Source of the DNA: Candidatus Bathyarchaeota archaeon
GTDB lineage: Archaea > Thermoproteota > Bathyarchaeia > Bathyarchaeales > Bathycorpusculaceae
DNA length: 64,000 bases
Assembly: GCA_026014705.1 (NCBI GenBank)
Contig: JAOZHU010000007.1
Span: 44,287 to 108,286, forward strand
Direction: 5' to 3'
The notes under the pieces were generated by a model, which saw only the letters and a list, made by a program, of their open reading frames with translations, made no database searches and was not told the origin of the DNA. Below, piece by piece: positions 26,946 to 47,413 of this stretch. Both the position numbers and the translations under genes were made by a program. Every line of letters begins with the position of its first letter. The first letter of the stretch is position 1.

Positions 26946-27225
26946 GCAACTCTTTCGGCAAATTAGCTTACCTGAGGCTGTTTATGAATTCTTCGGCTCT
27001 CCTCGGTAACTACTAGTTTCAGAAATTGTGAAATGAGCTTACCGACTGCGTTCGCCACAGCGCACATCGCTCAAACAGGAAGAATAGCAAAGCAAAAGCA
27101 GATGCGCTCTGTTCTACTGGGTATTTCGCAGCGAACCCCGCGAAAATTCAAAACTTATAAAAACAAGTGTCTCCTACTTTGATTTTGCGTAAACTTTACG
27201 CTAAAAAACACGGGAGAAAAAAAGA

Positions 27226-29856
27226 ATGCAGCTTTCAAGAAACAGAACAATAGCTACTGCAATCACATTATTCCTGACGTTAAGCATCGCTGCTTCATTA
27301 GCTTTACCAGTTGTTAACGCGCATACGCCGCCATGGACAGTTAAGACCTACGCTTACGTTACAGCTACGCCGAACCCTGCAGGCGTTAACCAGCCGGTAG
27401 CCATCGTTTTCTGGCTAAACTGGCCGCCGCCAACAGCGGCAGGAAACACAGGTGATAGGTGGCAAGGCTTCAAGATAGAGGTCACCAAGCCTGACGGAGC
27501 CGTTGACACCTTGGGTCCGTTTGTGTCTGACCCAGTAGGCTCAAGCTTTACTTCATATACACCTACTCAAGTAGGCGAATACAAAGTAAAGTTTACCTTC
27601 CCTGGGCAAGTCCTGCAAAGAGCGGGCTATACTGGATTGCCTGGCAGTAATAGTGATTACGTAAACGATACTTTTGCAGCCAGTACAGCGGAAACAACAT
27701 TCACTGTGCAGGAAACACCAGTGCCCTACTGGACGCAGCCTCCGCTTCCAACTAGTTACTGGGAGCGCCCAATAGATTCAATGAACACCAACTGGCACGT
27801 CATCGCATCGAACTGGCTTGGCCAAAGCGAGTTCGGGGTAAACTACCTGAGATACCAGAAGTACGGGAGAGCACCTGACAGCGCACACGTGCTGTGGACA
27901 AAGCCTATCTCGTTCGGCGGAGTTGTCGGCGGACCCAACGTTGGAACCCCTGACATGACCTTCTACTCAGGCACTGCATACCAATACAGGTTCCCTAACC
28001 CACTAATAATGTACGGAAGACTCTACTATCCTCTGCCACTTGCGAACAGCCCCACAGGCGGCGGCTACACCTGCGTGGACTTGCGCACTGGAGAGCGAAT
28101 ATGGACAACCGAATTATTCAACCAAGTCACATTCGGGCAGTTCTTGGACTTTGAATCACCAAACCAACACGGCGTCAACCCTAACGGCTACTTATGGCTA
28201 AGCACAACCATCAGAGGAACAGGAATTCTCAACCCTACTGGAACGTACCCCGTCACTGGAGGAACGACCAACTCTACGGCGGTCATTAACGAGTCTGGCT
28301 GGATGGCGATTGATGCTATGACAGGACGCCCTCTGTTCAATTACACTGGTGTTCCTTCTGGCACAAGATCATTTGGACCAAACGGTGAATGGCTAATAAA
28401 CAACATTGGTAGACAGAACACTTCGGCGCCTTACACCTATCTTTGGCAGTGGAACAGCACCAAGTACCCAGGACTTGAAACTCCAGGAACAATAGTTCAA
28501 TGGCTACCAGGACTACGCAACATCAACATGAGCATGGCATACGATTGGAACGTTACACTTTCACAGCCTTTGCCAGCTGGAACCCAAACTGCCATAGTTC
28601 AAGTGATACCCGGAGACCTCATATTTGGCAGAAGCTCAGCATTGCAGTTCACAAGCTCGACTGGCGGAGCGTTCGGAACACCAGACCCCTACACATTGTG
28701 GGTGGTAAACCTGAACAAGACTAGAGGACCAATCGGACAAGTGCTGTGGATTAAGAACTATACGGGATCAAATGACATGACTATACTGATTGGACAGCGT
28801 GACCAAGAAACCTACGTCTTCACCAAGTATTACAAAGAAACCATGCAGTGGAGCGGATACAGCTTGCTTACTGGCGAAAAACTATGGGGACCAACACCTT
28901 CTGAGAACGCATTTAACTTCTACGGCGGCACCACAGGTCTAACGGCGCCATACGCAATTGGCTACGGTCGCCTCTACTCAACTGGCTACGGCGGAACACT
29001 ATATTGCTATGATCTCAAAACAGGAAAAACAGTGTTCACCTATGGCAATGACCCTAACGACCCAAAGAACTGCACCATGACGCCTAATACTGTCTACGGT
29101 AACTATCCTTATCAAGTTGCTGCAGTCGGCGACGGCAAAGTCTACATGATCTCCAGCGAACACTCTCTTGGTGCTCCGCCATTCTTTGGCGCAGAAGTAC
29201 GCTGCGTTAACGCTACGACTGGCGAAGAGATTTGGAAGCTGGTTGGCATGTGCAACTGGCAAGAGGTTGCTTTGGCAGACGGATACTTCGTTTACCTCAA
29301 CTACAACGACATGCAGATATACTGTATTGGTCCAGGACCCAGCGCCACCACGGTAACGGCTTCGCCCTCAGTCACGGCGCAAGGCGGCAGCGTGCTTATC
29401 ACGGGCACAGTCACTGACCAATCTCCGAACAAGGCATTAAAAGGCACTGCAGCAATCGCTGACGAAGACCAAGGTGCATGGATGAACTACATGGTGATGA
29501 AGAATGTTGTTTGCCCCAATGTGAAAGGCGTTGAAGTGACCTTAGACACTCTTGATCCTAACGGCAACTTTATCCACATTGGCACCGTCACTACTGATTC
29601 AAGCGGCTTATTCAAGAAGTTGTGGACACCTGAAGTTCCAGGCGAATACACTATCATCGCTACGTTTGCTGGCTCTAAATCGTACGGTCCGTCATACGCT
29701 GAAACAGCCATAGGCATAACAGACGCGCCGCCATCACCGACGCCGATGCCAGAATACCCGCAGCCTATTGATCACACGATGACTATCATTGGTACTGGAA
29801 TAGCGATTATACTAGTGGTAGTCATAATTGGCTTGCTGATACTCAGGAAAAAGTAG
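27226..29856 (+). CDS. Secreted, membrane-anchored beta-propeller (PQQ-like repeat) surface protein, paralog 1
   Basis: Signal peptide; LRTGERIWTTEL, LLTGEKLWGPTP, LKTGKTVFTYG, ATTGEEIWKL; C-terminal EYPQPIDHTMTIIGTGIAIILVVVIIGLLILRKK. Confidence 0.88.
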   Translation: MQLSRNRTIATAITLFLTLSIAASLALPVVNAHTPPWTVKTYAYVTATPNPAGVNQPVAIVFWLNWPPPTAAGNTGDRWQGFKIEVTKPDGAVDTLGPFVSDPVGSSFTSYTPTQVGEYKVKFTFPGQVLQRAGYTGLPGSNSDYVNDTFAASTAETTFTVQETPVPYWTQPPLPTSYWERPIDSMNTNWHVIASNWLGQSEFGVNYLRYQKYGRAPDSAHVLWTKPISFGGVVGGPNVGTPDMTFYSGTAYQYRFPNPLIMYGRLYYPLPLANSPTGGGYTCVDLRTGERIWTTELFNQVTFGQFLDFESPNQHGVNPNGYLWLSTTIRGTGILNPTGTYPVTGGTTNSTAVINESGWMAIDAMTGRPLFNYTGVPSGTRSFGPNGEWLINNIGRQNTSAPYTYLWQWNSTKYPGLETPGTIVQWLPGLRNINMSMAYDWNVTLSQPLPAGTQTAIVQVIPGDLIFGRSSALQFTSSTGGAFGTPDPYTLWVVNLNKTRGPIGQVLWIKNYTGSNDMTILIGQRDQETYVFTKYYKETMQWSGYSLLTGEKLWGPTPSENAFNFYGGTTGLTAPYAIGYGRLYSTGYGGTLYCYDLKTGKTVFTYGNDPNDPKNCTMTPNTVYGNYPYQVAAVGDGKVYMISSEHSLGAPPFFGAEVRCVNATTGEEIWKLVGMCNWQEVALADGYFVYLNYNDMQIYCIGPGPSATTVTASPSVTAQGGSVLITGTVTDQSPNKALKGTAAIADEDQGAWMNYMVMKNVVCPNVKGVEVTLDTLDPNGNFIHIGTVTTDSSGLFKKLWTPEVPGEYTIIATFAGSKSYGPSYAETAIGITDAPPSPTPMPEYPQPIDHTMTIIGTGIAIILVVVIIGLLILRKK

Positions 29857-37187: not shown

Positions 37188-37221
37188 ATTCTTACGTGAA
37201 TCAAACCGAGCACGTGAGAAT
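37188..37221 (+). promoter_or_regulatory. 5' leader inverted repeat ATTCTTACGTG-N12-CACGTGAGAAT
   Basis: Also present at 40368-40401 upstream of the next paralog with the same spacing. Confidence 0.55.
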
Positions 37222-37242
37222 AGAAAAATAGGAGAAAGAAAG

Positions 37243-40035
37243 TTGAACATTGAAAAAAGCAAAACAACCTCTGCTGCTATCGCCTTGATTCTGACGCTCT
37301 CGCTAGCTATATCGTTCATTGCTATACCCGTTGTTAAAGCATATGATCCCCCATGGACTATTCCAACCAGCGCCTATGTTACTTGCGCGCCAAGCACAAT
37401 CGGTCTTGGGCAATCAACCACCATTGTCGTGTTTGTTGACAGGTATCCGCCGACAGCAGGCGGCGCCGTTGGTCAACGATGGGACGGATTCAAGATAGAC
37501 ATCACAAAGCCAGACGGCACCAAGGAAACTATAGGACCATGGAAATGTGGAAGTGCCGTGGCTAGTGATTTCAAGGTATACACCCCCGACCAGATTGGTA
37601 CATACACAATTGTGTTCAGCTGGCCCGGAGGAAAAGTTGAATCCAGCCCAGCCCAATACACACACGCAGGCATCGGTGACATTTTCTTAGGCTCCACAAG
37701 CCAACCGACGACACTCGTTGTAACAGCAGATAAAGTGCCTATTTATCCGGAGACCCCGCTTCCGACTGACTATTGGACGCGCCCATTAAACGCCATGAAC
37801 AGAGATTGGACAAAGATTGCAAGCAACTGGCTAGGAGGAACATGGCTGAAGAACAACTACCAACGATACGGTACAGGACCGACTACAGCCCACATATTGT
37901 GGACTGCGCCTATTCTGGCGGATTCACCTTCCAGCATGGGCTATCCAGGTGGTCTAGTTGACGGAAGCTGGCCTGGTATCTCCACCAACATCAACGACTA
38001 CCAGTCTCCGTGGCGAAACCCGATAATCATGAATGGCATACTCTATTACAGCGCACCGACGACCGCGCAAACTGCAAAGTATGGGTACTATGCAGTTGAT
38101 TTGCATACTGGAGAGCGGCTATGGTATAAGAATGGAACCGACAACGGTATCAACAATCCTTTTTCAATGACTACACCTAGCATTGTCAGCACGGCTCCTT
38201 CATACGCGCAACAGTATTATATTCTGTCATTCGGGCAGCTCTACTACTACTATTCGGTCAACGGACAGGGAGTGGCTTCTTTCTTGTGGATGACACAGCA
38301 GGCCGCGACAACCTTCGTCACTTCGACTACGACTTGGTACATGCTCGACTCTTCAACTGGAAACGTAATATTGACTCTGAAAAACGTGCCAAGCGGTACC
38401 GCCGCAACGGGCCAAGATGGGTCTCTTCTGATATACCGATACATTCCTTCTACAGGCAACTTCCTTTGCTGGAACTCAAGCCAAGCCATTTATCCAGGCG
38501 GTCCTACATCCAGTGGCGGTCAGGTTTTCCGACCTCCATTAGGAGCAGTAATTGACGCTGTTAACGACGATAAATGGGTTAACGCCAGCACAACTTGGGG
38601 CACAGCTCTTAGTCCGCAGCTTAAAGAGGCATTGAAGACTCCGCATTCGGGATACACGATGAACGTGACAAGCGATTCTTTCAAGAATCTACCAGGAAGC
38701 ATGACTATAATACAAGATAAGAACCGCGTGACAAAGAAGATATTTGGCTCGTCAATTACAACCACATACGGCAGTATAGGCGGTTCCTGCACTGGGGACA
38801 CAATTGCGATATGGTGTGCAACCGTAAAGGAAGGCGCAGCGCCTTATAGTCCTTGGCCAACACTGGACGCTGCTGTGAACACCAACCTTGGCTTCGCCGT
38901 TACACTGGACTATTACAAAAACATAACGGTTCCAATACCAGGCAAGAACCACACTTGGTCCATTGGCGGAAACGACTACGAGAGTGACACCTTTATGCTG
39001 AGATGTGCGCAAACGGGTCAGCTTTGGGCTTACAAGTTAAGCACTGGGGAATTAAAGTGGGGACCGACCCCAGCGTTGTCAGGACAAGAACAGTTTGAGT
39101 ACTATGGCCAATCCAGCAATATCTACGACGATAAGGTTCTCGTTGGCTCTCAGTATACGGGAACTCTAAAAGCCTATGACGTAGCCACTGGAAAGCTCTT
39201 GTGGACTTATGAAGCTGACGCTGCACCATACCGTTTTGAAAGCGCATACGGACGCAACATGCCATTAACCATAAGCGCTGTTTGCGATGGAATGGTCTAT
39301 GTGCACTCTACTGAGCACTCGCCTACTAATCCGCTCTGGCGACAATCCTATGTTCGCTGTATCAACATGACAGACGGAACGCTAATTTGGAAGCTGCCTA
39401 TTTTCAACATGGCTTTAGCCATTGCAGACGGTAAACTCGTTGCTGCAAGTCAGTATGACAATCTTATATACACTGTTGGGAAGGGACCAAGCGCTGTAAC
39501 AGTTTCTGCTCCGCAGAGCGGCGTAACCATGGGCTCCAGCTTTGTCATCACAGGCACGGTCACTGATCAATCTCCCGGCGCTAAGGCGGTCGCTAAGAAG
39601 ATGGGCTACACTAACGGCGTTGCCTGCGTTTCTGACGCAAGCCAGGAAGGATGGATGAGCTATTTGTACATGCAGCAGCCTTGCCCCGCGGACGTTACTG
39701 GTGTTCCAGTGAGAATTGACGTTTTAGACCCTAACGGCAACTACGTTAACCTTGGCACTGCTACGAACAACTTGAACGGCGTCTACGGTCTCGCAGTGGA
39801 CACAAACGACCTTGATGCTGGTCCAGGCTTGTACGAGGTCATCGCTACGTTTGAAGGCTCTGGCTCTTACGGCTCCTCATTCGCTACGACTTACTTTACG
39901 CTTGACGCGGCGCCTGAAACGTCGCCTCCACCAGAGTATCCACAGCCTGTTGACCCGACATGGACTATTGTGGGCGTCGGCATCGCGATGATAATTGCCG
40001 TGGCGCTCGCTGCAGTCTGGATAAAGAAGAAATAG
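37243..40035 (+). CDS. Secreted, membrane-anchored beta-propeller surface protein, paralog 2
   Basis: TTG start after GGAGAAAG; signal peptide; LHTGERLWYKN, LSTGELKWGPTP, VATGKLLWTYE; C-terminal EYPQPVDPTWTIVGVGIAMIIAVALAAVWIKKK. The N-terminal extension to 36979 is not supported. Confidence 0.88.
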   Translation: MNIEKSKTTSAAIALILTLSLAISFIAIPVVKAYDPPWTIPTSAYVTCAPSTIGLGQSTTIVVFVDRYPPTAGGAVGQRWDGFKIDITKPDGTKETIGPWKCGSAVASDFKVYTPDQIGTYTIVFSWPGGKVESSPAQYTHAGIGDIFLGSTSQPTTLVVTADKVPIYPETPLPTDYWTRPLNAMNRDWTKIASNWLGGTWLKNNYQRYGTGPTTAHILWTAPILADSPSSMGYPGGLVDGSWPGISTNINDYQSPWRNPIIMNGILYYSAPTTAQTAKYGYYAVDLHTGERLWYKNGTDNGINNPFSMTTPSIVSTAPSYAQQYYILSFGQLYYYYSVNGQGVASFLWMTQQAATTFVTSTTTWYMLDSSTGNVILTLKNVPSGTAATGQDGSLLIYRYIPSTGNFLCWNSSQAIYPGGPTSSGGQVFRPPLGAVIDAVNDDKWVNASTTWGTALSPQLKEALKTPHSGYTMNVTSDSFKNLPGSMTIIQDKNRVTKKIFGSSITTTYGSIGGSCTGDTIAIWCATVKEGAAPYSPWPTLDAAVNTNLGFAVTLDYYKNITVPIPGKNHTWSIGGNDYESDTFMLRCAQTGQLWAYKLSTGELKWGPTPALSGQEQFEYYGQSSNIYDDKVLVGSQYTGTLKAYDVATGKLLWTYEADAAPYRFESAYGRNMPLTISAVCDGMVYVHSTEHSPTNPLWRQSYVRCINMTDGTLIWKLPIFNMALAIADGKLVAASQYDNLIYTVGKGPSAVTVSAPQSGVTMGSSFVITGTVTDQSPGAKAVAKKMGYTNGVACVSDASQEGWMSYLYMQQPCPADVTGVPVRIDVLDPNGNYVNLGTATNNLNGVYGLAVDTNDLDAGPGLYEVIATFEGSGSYGSSFATTYFTLDAAPETSPPPEYPQPVDPTWTIVGVGIAMIIAVALAAVWIKKK

Positions 40036-40367: not shown

Positions 40368-40401
40368 ATTCTTGCGTGAGACAAAATAATCACGTGAGAA
40401 T
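40368..40401 (+). promoter_or_regulatory. 5' leader inverted repeat ATTCTTGCGTG-N12-CACGTGAGAAT
   Basis: Homologous to 37188-37221. Confidence 0.55.
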
Positions 40402-40426
40402 AAAAGAAAAGGAAGAGAGAAAACAA

Positions 40427-43021
40427 ATGCAATTGAGAAGAAATAAGACATTCGCTGCTGCTGTTGTTGCTCTCTTGGTATTGACTATTGGTGCTTCGGT
40501 AGCTTTGCCAATCACTGAGGCGCATACTCCGCCATGGACAATTGAAGCTTGGTGCTATGCTGGTGTCACACCGCGAACGATAGGAGTCAACCAAGACGCG
40601 TTAATTGTCTTCTGGATTAACTGGGTTCCGCCGACAGTAGGCACCGACAGTCGATTTGGAGACAGGTGGATTTTCTACGTTAACATCACAGCCCCAGATG
40701 GCTCTAAAGAAACGCTGGGACCATACAAATCCGACCCCGTGGGCGGAAGTTGGACAACCTACACGCCTACTCAAGTCGGCACCTACACCATAGTAGCTTA
40801 TATGCCTGCATACAAGATAACAGGTCTTCCTAGCGCAACTGGAGTTCCCATCACCAGCGATTACATCAATGATACTTATGGTCCAGCCACAAGTGAAGCT
40901 GTGTATTTGACGGTGCAGGAGGAGCCAATACAGGCATGGCAAGAAACGCCTCTCCCGACGCAGTATTGGACTCGCCCGATAAACGCAGCTAACAGAAACT
41001 GGGATGTTCTTGCAGGGAATTGGCTGGGTGGCGCTGCTCAAAGCGTCGCTCCGGGTGCCAGTAACTATGGTGTCTCGCTTGGTTTTGCACCAAATGACCT
41101 TTACGCCTACGGTCCTGGTCCGGAAAGTGCTCACGTCATGTGGACAAAGCCTTACTACGCTGGAGGCATAATGGATGTGCGTTTCGGTAACACAGGCTAC
41201 GAGACTGCGCATTATCAGGGCATCAATTTGGGGAATCCGATAATTATTCAGGGAAAACTCATTGTTCCGTACCGAAATACGGCGCATACGACGACTGGTT
41301 GGTGGGTTCTCGATTTGTATACGGGTGAGACGTTGTCTTTCCAAAACACAAGCACGATTCCTGCGTTTGGTCAGATATACAACTATGAGTCGCCTAATCA
41401 GCATGGTGGCTTCCCTTACTTATGGAGGACTTCTGGCGTAACATTGCCGAGCGGGTACACAAGCGCTAGTGGCACTCAGACTTGGGAGATGCTTGATGGG
41501 TTCACTTTGGAAACCGTTACGAAGATAGCTAACGTGTCTGCTACTGGAACAAACGTCTACGGCAAAGACGGAAGCATACTCTATTACAACATTGTTAACC
41601 TCGGAACCACGGCGTCGCCGAAACGTTATTTGCAAGTGTGGAATTCATCGGCAACGCCTACGCTGCTTCAAGGAACAACGGGCACGAATTTCTGGCAGTG
41701 GAGACCTGCGAGGCTAGCGGTGCATGATGGTTCAAAAGGCTTCTCGTTGAATGTGTCTGTGCCTGATGTGCAGGGCAGCATACTTTCGGTTCGTGAAGAC
41801 GAATACGTCATAGGTGGGACATCGGGAAAGAATAACGGCACTTACGTGTTGCAGGGGCACTTGTGGGCTTTAAGCTTGAAGAGAGGACAGGAAGGGACCC
41901 TGTTGTGGAACGTTACTTTTACGCCGCCTTTGTCCACGTCGGATATTGTGGCGGGCAGTGGTTTAACTAGTTACGGTGTTGCTATGGGTGCTGTTGATCC
42001 GGAGGATGGCGTTTTCCTCTTTGAGCACAGGTTGACTTTGAAGCGTTGGGGTTACAGTCTCGCAACAGGGCAGATGCTGTGGGGTCCAACGCCGCCAGAA
42101 GAGCCGTTCCACTTCTATGGCATGAGCGAAGCTATCTACAAAGGCAAACTGTACAGTTACGGCTATGGTGGAGCAATAAGAGCTTACAACATAACAACTG
42201 GCGAAATCCTTTGGACGTATAATGCTACGACGGTTGGGTTTGAATCGCCCTATGGTGGTTTGTACCCGATTGGCATAGCTTGCATTGCTGACGGAAAGCT
42301 TTACACGGTGTCGAGTGAGCATTCGCCGACTCAACCGTTGTGGCGCGGTCCGAACTTGCGTTGCCTCGACGCGGACACGGGAGAGGAACTGTGGAAGATA
42401 CTGTTCTGGGGCGCCAGAATGTCTCCTGTTGAACCTAACGTGTACATTGCAGACGGTCGCTTGGTAGGTCTTAACTACTATGACATGCAGTTGTATTGCT
42501 TCGGCAAGGGTCCCAGTGCTACGACGGTTGCGGCTTCGCCTGAAGTGTCGGTGCATGGCAACAGCGTGCTGGTGAAGGGCACGGTTACGGATCAGACTCC
42601 TGCGGCGAAGGGTACTCCTGCGATTTCTGATGAGGACATGAGCGCGTGGATGGAATACCTGTACATGCAACAAGCGATGCCCCAGAACGCGAAGGGCGTT
42701 GAAGTGACGTTGGATGCGCTTGACCCGAACGGCAACTTTGTGAACATTGGCACTGTAACTAGCGATTTGAGCGGTAACTTTGCTAAGGCTTTTGTCCCTG
42801 AGGTTCCTGGCTTGTACACTATCATCGCTACGTTTGCTGGCTCCAAGTCTTATTATGGTTCGTACGCTGAGACTTTTGTGCAGGTGGATGAGGCGCCGCC
42901 TGCGACTGCGCCTCCGGAGTATCCGCAACCGTTTGATTACACGTGGACTATTGTGGGCATGGGTTTGGTGCTGTTGGTTGCGATAGTCGTCGTTGGCATA
43001 CTGTTGCTGAGGAAGAAGTAG
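40427..43021 (+). CDS. Secreted, membrane-anchored beta-propeller surface protein, paralog 3
   Basis: MQLRRNKTFAAAVVALLVLTIGASVALPITEA signal peptide; LATGQMLWGPTP, ITTGEILWTYN, ADTGEELWKI; C-terminal EYPQPFDYTWTIVGMGLVLLVAIVVVGILLLRKK. Confidence 0.88.
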   Translation: MQLRRNKTFAAAVVALLVLTIGASVALPITEAHTPPWTIEAWCYAGVTPRTIGVNQDALIVFWINWVPPTVGTDSRFGDRWIFYVNITAPDGSKETLGPYKSDPVGGSWTTYTPTQVGTYTIVAYMPAYKITGLPSATGVPITSDYINDTYGPATSEAVYLTVQEEPIQAWQETPLPTQYWTRPINAANRNWDVLAGNWLGGAAQSVAPGASNYGVSLGFAPNDLYAYGPGPESAHVMWTKPYYAGGIMDVRFGNTGYETAHYQGINLGNPIIIQGKLIVPYRNTAHTTTGWWVLDLYTGETLSFQNTSTIPAFGQIYNYESPNQHGGFPYLWRTSGVTLPSGYTSASGTQTWEMLDGFTLETVTKIANVSATGTNVYGKDGSILYYNIVNLGTTASPKRYLQVWNSSATPTLLQGTTGTNFWQWRPARLAVHDGSKGFSLNVSVPDVQGSILSVREDEYVIGGTSGKNNGTYVLQGHLWALSLKRGQEGTLLWNVTFTPPLSTSDIVAGSGLTSYGVAMGAVDPEDGVFLFEHRLTLKRWGYSLATGQMLWGPTPPEEPFHFYGMSEAIYKGKLYSYGYGGAIRAYNITTGEILWTYNATTVGFESPYGGLYPIGIACIADGKLYTVSSEHSPTQPLWRGPNLRCLDADTGEELWKILFWGARMSPVEPNVYIADGRLVGLNYYDMQLYCFGKGPSATTVAASPEVSVHGNSVLVKGTVTDQTPAAKGTPAISDEDMSAWMEYLYMQQAMPQNAKGVEVTLDALDPNGNFVNIGTVTSDLSGNFAKAFVPEVPGLYTIIATFAGSKSYYGSYAETFVQVDEAPPATAPPEYPQPFDYTWTIVGMGLVLLVAIVVVGILLLRKK

Positions 43022-43810: not shown

Positions 43811-44143
43811 TTTCCGTTATTTAGCCAAAGGTATTCATCTTTTCCGACGAATCCTGTTGCGCGTTTTGGCATTTGGTTGCACTTTCAATCAGAAACTAAG
43901 TGCGATTGCCTTTTAGTTCTTTTTGGGGGAGCAAATTGTTCCAAAATTGTAACAGATGAGACTCTGACGCGTCGACGTTAATGCGGCGTCTAAACGAAAT
44001 GTGGGTTGCTTTTCTCCGCAACATTAACGTGTGTGTTTTCGGTTGGCTTTTTTGTTCAGTAATAAGTCATGTTTCGTAATATAGGTTAAATCTTTTAAGC
44101 GTATTCTGCGTATATTCAGAGCAAAAAGCGTGTGAGTTGGTGA

Positions 44144-44482
44144 ATGTTGACGAAGAGTAGAGGAGAGGAGAAGGCAAAGCACATTCTCACCGACCCGAAA
44201 CTTTCAGCGATCAAAGCTATGCTGGAGAAGGACCATGCGATTGACTGCATGCTGCTGCTGTACATGAACCGTGGCAAGTGGAAGGAAGCGAAGGATTTCA
44301 TGCGTGAGAACAATTTGACTTTGAGCGATGGCACGTTCAGGGCGCGGATGATTGAGATTGAGGACATGGGTTTGGCTAAGAGCGAGCGGATTGACCCGTT
44401 GAAGCGGTATTATTTGATTACTGAGTTGGGTGAGAAAGTGGCGAAGCTTCTTCTCGAGTTCTTTGATGCTTTGGATGCTTAG
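44144..44482 (+). CDS. wHTH-like protein
   Basis: DCMLLLYMNRGKWKEAKDFMRENNLTLSDGTFRARMIEIEDMGLAKSERIDPLKRYYLITELGEKVAKLL. Confidence 0.65.
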   Translation: MLTKSRGEEKAKHILTDPKLSAIKAMLEKDHAIDCMLLLYMNRGKWKEAKDFMRENNLTLSDGTFRARMIEIEDMGLAKSERIDPLKRYYLITELGEKVAKLLLEFFDALDA

Positions 44483-44685
44483 GTGGCAGTTTCAGGCGTA
44501 TTTGCGCTGAACTGTTCTACACTTTCTTTTTTGACGTTTTTTTAGATGTTGTTTTGCTTGGTTTTGTTGGTGTTGTTGTAGTTGTGTTATACATATAGCC
44601 AATATTGTGTAGTAAGTCATAATATTTAAATGAGTCTTTCCGCTTGACATAACCTTAATTCGAACAGGAGGGAAGAAAAACAAAA

Positions 44686-45120
44686 ATGAACACGCTAAGG
44701 AAAATCAGGAAAAACGCGAAAGCCCTCAGCCCCGTCGTCGCATCAATCATACTCATAGCCGTCACAGTCGCCGTCAGCATCGCCGTAGCAGTATGGATGG
44801 GCGCACTCAGCACAGGATTCATGCAAACAGAACAAATCACATTCGGAACAATAACTTTCACAACAGGCACTACAGGCAACGTTTCAGTTTATGTAAAGAA
44901 CACAGGAACATCTGCAGTAACTATTAGCGAAGTGTACTTGAACGGTGCAGCAGTTGCGGATACCGCTATAAGTGCCCCCGACGAAGTGCCATTCATAATC
45001 CACCCAAACAAGCAAGAACTCTTAACTTTCACAGCAAATATAGCCGCTGGTGGCAACTACGAAGTCAAAGTTATCACTGCAAAGGGCAACCCGTTCGCGA
45101 AAAGCGCTATTGCCCAATAA
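44686..45120 (+). CDS. Archaeal type IV pilin/archaellin-like protein
   Basis: Class III signal peptide-like MNTLRKIRKNAKALSPVVASIILIAVTVAVSIAVAVWMG; about 105-aa beta-rich remainder. Confidence 0.85.
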   Translation: MNTLRKIRKNAKALSPVVASIILIAVTVAVSIAVAVWMGALSTGFMQTEQITFGTITFTTGTTGNVSVYVKNTGTSAVTISEVYLNGAAVADTAISAPDEVPFIIHPNKQELLTFTANIAAGGNYEVKVITAKGNPFAKSAIAQ

Positions 45121-45217
45121 ATTTCCCTTTTTATTTTGCTTCTAAACACACAGAGCGAGGGCAAACAATCTCCTCTTTCCCTTTCTTAATTACCCACACA
45201 GAGGTGCATGACAAGAC

Positions 45218-45643
45218 ATGGTCACAAAAATACGAGAATACAGTTCAGCCCGAGAAATAGCTGAAACCTTGGACAAGGAAATAGCCGACTCCAAAAGCGC
45301 ACTCGGCGAATACCTACGCCGCCTAGACGACATACGCAAATTGGCAGAGAAATCAAAGAAAGTCCGCGATGTTGTCATGAAACTCGCAGGCAAAAAAAAC
45401 CACAACGAAACCCCAAACGAAGTAACCGTAGGCAACCTAAACATAATCCTAGACGCCAACCCATTCCACGAACTAACCGCCTTAGAAAACGCTGTGCGCA
45501 GCCACCAAGACCGCCTCATAACGCTGCAGAAAGTCCGCGAAGCACTCAAGTGGCTGGACCAGCTCGGCGACGCCGAAGGCATGAAATACATAGTTCTAGA
45601 AAACGACGGCGTCCCAGAACGCATACTATTCAAAACCGCTTAA
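45218..45643 (+). CDS. Coiled-coil hypothetical protein
   Basis: Heptad-rich N-terminal helix (IAETLDKEIADSKSALGEYLRRLDDIRKLAEKSKKVRDVV); no known family recognised. Confidence 0.65.
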   Translation: MVTKIREYSSAREIAETLDKEIADSKSALGEYLRRLDDIRKLAEKSKKVRDVVMKLAGKKNHNETPNEVTVGNLNIILDANPFHELTALENAVRSHQDRLITLQKVREALKWLDQLGDAEGMKYIVLENDGVPERILFKTA

Positions 45644-45674
45644 ACACGCGCATAAAACTGCAGGAGCACGAAAC

Positions 45675-46433
45675 ATGGGCGACGAACTAGTCACTTTCGC
45701 CCTCAAAAACACGCTCAACGAAATACGCGGCGCCTACCCAGCCGTAACCAGCGCCTTCATCTTCAAAAACGCCAAAACACTAGTCACAGACGAAAACACA
45801 GACGCAACCACTGCACGAAACGCCGCGAACGCGCTCAAAGCCATAGTGAAACGCGCAAACGCGCTGGGCAACGTGGAAACCGTAGCATTGCACGCTGCAA
45901 ACAGCACCGTAAACGTCGCCCACATAGAAAACGCTTACCTAACCACCGTCACCACCGAAGACGCAGACCAACAGCAAATCAACACGCTTGCCCGCGTTCT
46001 GATACCCATAGTCCTCAGGCTCGTGGCCAAAATCCACCCTGCTTCAATAGCCACTGATTTTTACACGCTGGAAGAAACCGAACCCGCTGAACTGCCCATG
46101 GAGGAAACGCCAACGGCGCCGCTTGAACCGACACTGCCGCAGCCGCCAGTAACCCAACTCATAGTCGACAACCTAAACGGCTTACTAGCACCTCAAGACA
46201 CGGTGCGCATCGACCACGCAATAATCGCACAGTGGCAAAAACTCTACCCAAACAAGAAAATCGAGAAAGCCGAAGTAGCAGCGCTAAACGGAAGAAACAC
46301 AAACTGCAAAATCAAACCCATAAAAGACTCAAAACAAGAAGAACAAGGCAAAATCCAAATGCCCGAAAAAACCCAGCAAATCCTCCAAACCAAAAAAGGC
46401 GAACTCGTCCTAATCAAGCCCATAATCAACTAG
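45675..46433 (+). CDS. Roadblock/LC7-like domain protein with C-terminal beta domain
   Basis: VTSAFIFKNAKTLVTDENTDATTARNAANALKAIVKRANALGNVETVALHAANSTVNVAHIENAYLTTVTTEDAD... Roadblock-like alternation; Pro-rich linker; KIQMPEKTQQILQTKKGELVLIKP. Confidence 0.6.
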   Translation: MGDELVTFALKNTLNEIRGAYPAVTSAFIFKNAKTLVTDENTDATTARNAANALKAIVKRANALGNVETVALHAANSTVNVAHIENAYLTTVTTEDADQQQINTLARVLIPIVLRLVAKIHPASIATDFYTLEETEPAELPMEETPTAPLEPTLPQPPVTQLIVDNLNGLLAPQDTVRIDHAIIAQWQKLYPNKKIEKAEVAALNGRNTNCKIKPIKDSKQEEQGKIQMPEKTQQILQTKKGELVLIKPIIN

Positions 46434-46458
46434 CCACAGAAAAAGAAGGGCAACCCCA

Positions 46459-46854
46459 ATGGTGAAAAAAGCACAAACCACACAAGAACCCGCCACGATA
46501 ACCACAACCGTAGAAGACGACACCTTCGATAGATTAAGCCGAAAACTCGCGGAAATCAACAAACACCCACAAGTCACAGGCTACATCATGCGCAACGCAA
46601 CCTCAGCCATAATAAACCTCAAAAACAACCAGCACCTAACAGAAACCGCGCTCTTAGCCGCCCAAACAGCAGAATCAGCCACAGAAATAGCCCGCTTGTT
46701 CAACATGGGCGCCATCGACAGCGTCGTCATCACAGGCAAAGACGCCAAAACACTTTGCACAGTCATAGGAGAAAACAACATCTCCGTAACAATGGAAAAA
46801 AACGCCGACCACGACAACATCCTACAACAAATCAAACACAGTATTACAGCTTAA
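46459..46854 (+). CDS. Roadblock/LC7-like domain protein
   Basis: VTGYIMRNATSAIINLKNNQHLTETALLAAQTAESATEIARLFNMGAIDSVVITGKDAKTLCTVIGENNISVTMEKNAD. Confidence 0.6.
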   Translation: MVKKAQTTQEPATITTTVEDDTFDRLSRKLAEINKHPQVTGYIMRNATSAIINLKNNQHLTETALLAAQTAESATEIARLFNMGAIDSVVITGKDAKTLCTVIGENNISVTMEKNADHDNILQQIKHSITA

Positions 46855-46855
46855 G

Positions 46856-47092
46856 TCACGTTCGCGCCAAAAACCTCTGAAACCCTCGGCTAACCCGCAC
46901 CTTACGCTCCTCTTCATCAAAAAACGCGAAACCAAACCTGCACAAAAACTCTGCAACCGCCCGCAACTCATACTCAACTAAACCCGCCTGCTGCTGCAAC
47001 TCAGCCAATGCATGCCACTGACCATCGCCGAGAACCTCTAACAACAAGGCAACCTCTAAGCCCAACAGCAAGCACCTCACCTTGGCAAGCAA
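46856..47092 (-). CDS. Small wHTH-like protein, convergent with the Roadblock cluster
   Basis: LLEVLGDGQWHALAELQQQAGLVEYELRAVAEFLCRFGFAFFDEEERKVRVSRGFQRFL. Confidence 0.55.
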   Translation of the reverse strand: MLAKVRCLLLGLEVALLLEVLGDGQWHALAELQQQAGLVEYELRAVAEFLCRFGFAFFDEEERKVRVSRGFQRFLART

Positions 47093-47200
47093 TCAGCGCT
47101 CGGCATTTAAATCCTTTATGAGTCACTCTTCCAGAACATTCCTATAGAAAAAACCACGCAATTATCAACACCCATACGCGACGCTGCCAACAATGCGACC

Positions 47201-47413
47201 ATATTTGGAGCCTAATAGCCAATCAATGCAGAAAAATGAGAGAAGAGTCTACATCGGCACGAACCTATTTGCAGCCTATTAGAAATTCGTTGCAGAAACT
47301 ATAGAGAGGTAGGTCACTATTGACCCAAAAAAACCAGCCTAATAGCCTGTTGAAGCCACCAACCTATTTGAAGCCTATTAGAGGTTCTATGCAGAAACCA
47401 GTAGAGGGTCTAC
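47201..47413. repeat. Degenerate intergenic repeats, core TATTTGnAGCCTAwTAG...TGCAGAAA
   Basis: 47201-47218 ATATTTGGAGCCTAATAG, 47265-47282 CTATTTGCAGCCTATTAG, 47364-47381 CTATTTGAAGCCTATTAG; each followed by (a)TGCAGAAA and a TAGAG/GAGAG tract. Confidence 0.65.

Follow-up and report, generated by a model that had tools for sequence, protein, structure and literature searches.

A conserved pilin cassette of Bathyarchaeia with two divergent Roadblock proteins and a proposed role in type IV pilus control

A six-gene cassette of Bathyarchaeia, conserved in order and spacing among relatives, encodes a type IV pilin, a coiled-coil protein (CC) and two Roadblock/LC7 proteins (RB1 and RB2), flanked by genes for predicted winged-helix proteins (wHTH1 and wHTH2). 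Our preferred reading, to which we give a probability of about 0.5, is that the cassette is an accessory or regulatory module for a dedicated type IV pilus (T4P) in Bathyarchaeia, with the Roadblock pair as a GTPase-independent scaffold. As the usual switch partner is missing, the way in which the cassette governs pilus building is probably one not yet described. The original prediction, made from the window (the whole 64,000-nucleotide stretch of DNA analyzed here), was of an archaeal Roadblock module tied to a pilus; the archaeal genome and the pilus link both held, whereas the proposed role in controlling a GTPase was not supported.

Gene order and spacing of the cassette

A check of the open reading frames in the window recovered all six genes at the coordinates and on the strands listed in Table 1, in the order first proposed and with central gaps within the 25–97 nt then given: 97, 31 and 25 nt between pilin, CC, RB1 and RB2. 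The host genome is 1.99 Mb and 96% complete. Using tblastn and profile searches, we found the same order (regulator, pilin, CC, Roadblock-1, Roadblock-2, convergent wHTH) across one order of Bathyarchaeia, as expected if the arrangement is conserved in related archaea. Among the 39 Bathyarchaeia loci with sufficient flank around CC, RB1 is kept in 38, RB2 in 37, the pilin in 36, wHTH1 in 32 and wHTH2 in 16. The pilin–CC spacing is 75–120 nt in 43/43 loci, and the median spacings in the relatives' loci are 24 nt for CC–RB1 and 13 nt for RB1–RB2. Because both order and near-fixed spacing are conserved across relatives, the cassette is not a chance arrangement; chance open reading frames are likewise ruled out by conservation in dozens of genomes. 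The named relatives are Bathyarchaeota or Bathyarchaeia metagenome-assembled genomes, apart from one 'uncultured archaeon' and one 'miscellaneous Crenarchaeota group-1', as this lineage was formerly called.

Table 1. Features of the cassette in the window (positions numbered from the first nucleotide of the window).
Feature	Coordinates	Strand	Description
wHTH1 promoter motif TCGTAATATAGGTTAAAT	44074..44091	+	Perfect match upstream of wHTH1
wHTH1	44144..44482	+	112 aa; predicted winged-helix regulator that diverges from the known Pfam models
Pilin promoter motif	44613..44634	+	Consensus TAAGTCGTAAGATTTAAAT, window copy TAAGTCATAATATTTAAAT; TATA-like element and possible operator
Type IV pilin	44686..45120	+	Class III signal peptide and variable C-terminal domain
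CC (coiled-coil protein)	45218..45643	+	141 aa, cytoplasmic; two long helices and strand pairs
RB1	45675..46433	+	Roadblock/LC7 domain, disordered linker, CDC48/VCP-N-like double-psi beta-barrel
RB2	46459..46854	+	One Roadblock/LC7 domain, N-terminal tail variable
wHTH2	46856..47092	-	Small convergent winged-helix protein (predicted), weakly conserved

CC is the best-conserved member, with a mean column identity of 83% over 60 sequences, followed by wHTH1 (73%), then RB1, RB2 and the pilin (each near 40%) and wHTH2, the least conserved (30%). The flanks of the cassette vary, with flanking families common to at most ~7 of 29 loci (five loci were looked at in detail); only antisense shadow ORFs and the gene for a third wHTH depart from this. 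Elsewhere in the window, at 27205-29778, 37192-40032 and 40376-43021, lie genes for three paralogous, large, secreted-looking proteins that are 34–42% identical and have PQQ-like repeats by appearance.

Pilin, regulators and promoters

The first gene of the central four had been read as coding for a pilin-like protein with a class III signal peptide, and its product indeed scores 27.3 bits against TIGR02537 (cut-off 20). Pilin_N matches 17 of 39 relatives (best 6.9e-7), and the N-terminus, KALSPVVA.IILIAVTVAVSIAVAAWMG, hardly varies among 39 sequences. The class III signal peptide is followed by a hydrophobic helix, with LSPV.A.IILIAVTVAVS nearly invariant, as in an archaeal type IV pilin, and cleavage would fall between NAKA and LSPVVASIILIAVTVAVSIAVAVWM. 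The variable C-terminal domain gives weak CARDB/Ig-like matches.

Relatives of wHTH1 are 63–83% identical to it. The appearance of the sequence and weak Pfam matches to HxlR/HTH_45, in a few relatives only, are the basis for predicting a winged-helix regulator. Its gene lies ~200 nt from the pilin gene in the window and up to 2.1 kb away in relatives. Given this distance and its own conserved promoter motif, we treat wHTH1 as a linked regulator outside the four-gene operon. That motif, TCGTAATATAGGTTAAAT, occurs only once in the window (0 expected), and TCGTAATAT was found in 37 of 41 wHTH1 upstream regions. Most loci have GTAAGATTTAAAT upstream of the pilin, and none has it more than once. 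The position weight matrix for the pilin motif scores 21.6 at its site in the window, the only match there, and gives 46 matches in 0.93 Mb of cassette loci. The pilin promoter also has a conserved GTCGTAAGATTTAAAT element, and its leader a Shine-Dalgarno-like AAGGAGGGAT. TCGTAA-AT is common to the wHTH1 and pilin promoters, which suggests, from sequence likeness, a common regulator for the two.

The convergent wHTH2 has a weak MksE match. Between RB2 and wHTH2 many relatives encode a third small wHTH (HRGRLDIIADILEAS..KKTYLMYRCNLSFKQL; for example L054:11690-12109, L058:10025-10312 and L060:11802-12080, among others), which was not found in the window. Three degenerate direct repeats of ~42 nt (AACCTATTTGNAGCCTATTAG...TGCAGAAAC) lie between wHTH2 and an aminotransferase gene at 47194-47398 of the window; their core motif has no other occurrence in the window (0.02 expected).

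The two Roadblock proteins

Both proteins had been predicted to be Roadblock-like, the first with an extra C-terminal domain. For RB1, an AlphaFold (AF2) model with a pLDDT of 88 shows a Roadblock/LC7 domain at residues ~2–120, a disordered linker at 130–146 and a barrel at ~158–250. The N-terminal domain runs helix, strand, strand, helix, three strands, helix, which is the Roadblock fold, and Foldseek matched it at a probability of 1.00 to LAMTOR2 (6b9x, the best structural match), a Thorarchaeota Roadblock and MglB (6hjm, 6izw). The Foldseek matches for both domains have E-values of about 4e-6 to 1e-5. The extra domain proved real and could be named: its match to the double-psi beta-barrel (DPBB) of VCP (7dg9, E 4e-6, TM by target 0.82), together with the model and with Pfam, identifies it as a CDC48/VCP-N-like DPBB. 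Among the relatives of RB1, 30 of 54 match CDC48_N and 14 of 54 match Robl_LC7.

Profile statistics carry the assignment of RB2 and agree with that of RB1. Robl_LC7 (PF03259) matches 47 of 57 RB2 relatives (best E 3.6e-6), and profile matches in the PDB include 3l7h (7.5e-4) and 7yh1 (2e-3). The RB2 protein of the window alone scores 13.2 bits against Robl_LC7 vs a cut-off of 23; the window proteins of both RB1 and RB2 fall below the Pfam cut-offs when searched alone, and the calls came via family alignments. A direct Robl_LC7 search of the host genome gave no match at E<=0.001, so RB1 and RB2 are divergent Roadblocks. Since the profile-profile match between the two is weak (16% probability), we do not claim a recent duplication.

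Two loci encode stand-alone DPBB proteins of the RB1 type, with an N-terminal Cys-rich segment and without a Roadblock domain (L051:9404-9943 and L052:9488-10108); the former matches CDC48_N at 2.8e-5. RB2 itself was also detected outside the class, at E 3.8e-45 (G482, C28:891-1280), by horizontal transfer or on a misbinned contig.

The coiled-coil family, the pilus machinery and a possible mechanism

The AF2 model of CC has modest confidence (pLDDT 72) and weakly resembles prefoldin (Foldseek E about 0.4–0.8, TM by target up to 0.61). Its top PDB matches, FliA, occludin and MORC2, are weak coiled-coil matches, and we rejected them as identifications. A profile search found CC relatives in 99 of 400 Thermoproteota genomes; ~60 of the 99 lie outside the class, mostly with a single CC relative each, and the homologues are spread over many Thermoproteota families. 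In 8 of 20 sampled distant CC loci (L156, L161, L165, L166, L167, L170, L172 and L173) a T2SSE ATPase gene lies within about 7 kb, with Pfam confirming 8/8; the other 12 have none nearby. If 2–5% is taken as the background, by our own estimate, this proximity has a binomial probability between 3e-9 and 3e-6. L156 also has TadC, and in L172 a pilin gene adjoins CC. These Thermoproteota neighborhoods associate CC with T4P, and we infer that it may serve T4P as a conserved accessory protein in the cytoplasm. CC is more widely spread than RB2, which hardly occurs outside the order; the Roadblocks therefore look like an addition to a T4P-associated CC protein.

A CC paralogue of ~180 aa, whose profile aligns with that of CC at E 4.6e-33, occurs in the order and was not found in the host genome. 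Its gene adjoins genes for CbbQ-type AAA+ and VWA proteins, and the locus in some genomes also has pilin, T2SSE and T2SSF genes. We do not claim a common regulon with the AAA+ gene of this locus, the pilin motif upstream of that gene being clear in G005 and G035 and weaker or absent elsewhere. Among other forms of CC, a longer one of 230 aa (L140:8928-9850; similar in L138 and L139) has a charged N-terminal extension and adjoins a small Cys-rich protein. One genome (G002, C3:41270-41597) has a fragmented CC with an in-frame TAG and no TadC detected, as if both were decaying together. At L170:7622-10684 an intein that carries a LAGLIDADG domain splits the pilus ATPase gene.

Partners of the cassette had been expected elsewhere in the genome, and candidates were found there: the host encodes two Pfam-confirmed T2SSE ATPases, whose loci both include TadC-type genes and lie away from the cassette, and has four T2SSF matches, so that a T2SSE ATPase and a TadC platform are both present. 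In the genomes examined, the conserved part of the cassette's flanks contains no T4P engine genes, and because no engine adjoins it, its physical T4P partner is an inferred one. We compared the distribution of cassette and TadC by a hand tally in which CC stood for the former and T2SSF for the latter. In one genus (g11), TadC is found in 13/13 cassette-positive vs. 2/19 cassette-negative genomes (Fisher 3.0e-7), and in one family (f1), leaving out four genomes with fragmentary or ambiguous CC, in 54/57 vs. 14/31 (Fisher 2.6e-7); as members of a single genus do not count as independent cases, this co-occurrence may reflect few loss events. The three cassette-positive family members in which TadC was undetected are G008, G161 and G170, of which G008 and G170 are incomplete. 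Taken with the pilin signal peptide and the T2SSE genes near CC homologues, the co-occurrence supports the pilus link.

In the mechanism we favor, wHTH1 would control the conserved pilin promoter. The pilin, judging by its signal peptide and by gene content, would be processed by prepilin peptidase and assembled by an unlinked T4P ATPase/TadC machine, with CC acting as a putative cytoplasmic accessory protein. RB1 and RB2 would pair as a Roadblock heterodimer, a scaffold without a Ras-like GTPase, and the VCP-N-like barrel of RB1 would dock a partner, for which CC, the pilus ATPase and some other AAA+ protein are the likeliest candidates. Such docking might let assembly of the cassette pilin be switched or positioned.

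A reading on the pattern of MglB, in which the two Roadblocks provide the GAP/GEF platform of an unlinked Ras-like GTPase that sets pilus polarity, gains from the match of RB1 to the MglB structures and from the bacterial precedent, which likewise acts on T4P (PMC9481161). The search for an MglA/Ras-like GTPase went against it. The Roc profile at E<=0.001 gave only IF-2 (597 aa) in the host genome. Nearly the same was seen in 40 relatives: 39 of the 41 genomes had matches, almost always just one, in a frame of ~600 aa like that of IF-2, with matches in other frames in a few relatives (G014, G040, G043 and G047), and the control genomes were positive. Neither the cassette nor the conserved part of its flanks contains a GTPase gene. 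A divergent Rup/Arf-like GTPase could escape the Roc profile, or sit in the missing ~4% of the genome. With no Ras-like GTPase detected, an MglA/MglB module is disfavored, and we consider it very unlikely.

The Roadblock proteins and CC might instead form a cytoplasmic complex independent of T4P, for example a chaperone, or an adaptor for an AAA+ ATPase, acting via the CDC48_N-like barrel, with the pilin merely co-transcribed. The resemblance of CC to prefoldin, the barrel on RB1 and the AAA+ and VWA neighbors of the CC paralogue fit such a complex; the adjacent pilin in 36/39 loci, the pilus ATPases near distant CC homologues and the co-occurrence with TadC do not, and we regard it as rather unlikely. 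The module could also be mainly a transcriptional switch for the pilin, with the Roadblocks joining the wHTH proteins in a sensory or regulatory role, as the TCGTAA-AT shared by both promoters and the third wHTH of many relatives might indicate. Yet the wHTH proteins have no detectable Roadblock-binding domain, wHTH2 and the third wHTH are not universal (the window lacks the latter), and in other orders CC is still T4P-associated without Roadblock or wHTH1. This makes a switch of that kind quite improbable in our judgment.

That Roadblock genes occur near archaeal T4P genes is already known: in a one-line census note, Makarova, Koonin and Albers (2016, PMC4858521) list Roadblock proteins of arCOG02603 from various archaeal T4P loci. 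Compared by description, these resemble the cassette in being encoded with archaeal type IV pilus genes, but they lie inside T4P loci, whereas here two Roadblocks, one of them DPBB-fused, belong to a pilin cassette that stands by itself, apart from the engine genes. We found no description of this architecture in the literature searched on Roadblock proteins with Bathyarchaeia, pilin or double-psi barrels. Roadblock proteins have been described as GTPase platforms (PMC10933270, PMC4316618). The MglA/MglB system of Myxococcus and Thermus shares the Roadblock fold and the link to type IV pili, but MglB is a homodimer, and the cassette has two different Roadblocks, an extra CDC48_N-like barrel and no Ras-like GTPase found. 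Ragulator offers, in LAMTOR2/LAMTOR3, a Roadblock pair as scaffold and the best match of the RB1 N-terminal domain; at 16% sequence identity the likeness goes little beyond the fold, no Rag GTPase was found for the cassette, and the DPBB fusion is additional. Unlike the CDC48/VCP N-domain, whose DPBB subdomain has the same fold, the barrel of RB1 has no attached AAA+ motor and is fused to a Roadblock instead. MoxR/GvpN-vWA gene pairs are also found near archaeal T4P (PMC4858521). The surroundings of the CC paralogue are like them, near T4P in some genomes; the window cassette has Roadblocks where AAA+ and VWA stand.

CC represents a coiled-coil family, unnamed in Pfam and NCBIfam, whose members turn up repeatedly in Thermoproteota and often lie close to pilus ATPases. 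As the cassette is compact, order-wide and tied to T4P, it offers four named proteins as a test case. More specifically, and only tentatively, we propose that a GTPase-independent Roadblock heterodimer, one subunit of which carries a VCP-N-like barrel, might directly regulate an archaeal type IV pilus motor. If true, docking to a motor or NTPase without a small GTPase would be a separate, and possibly older, use of the Roadblock fold.
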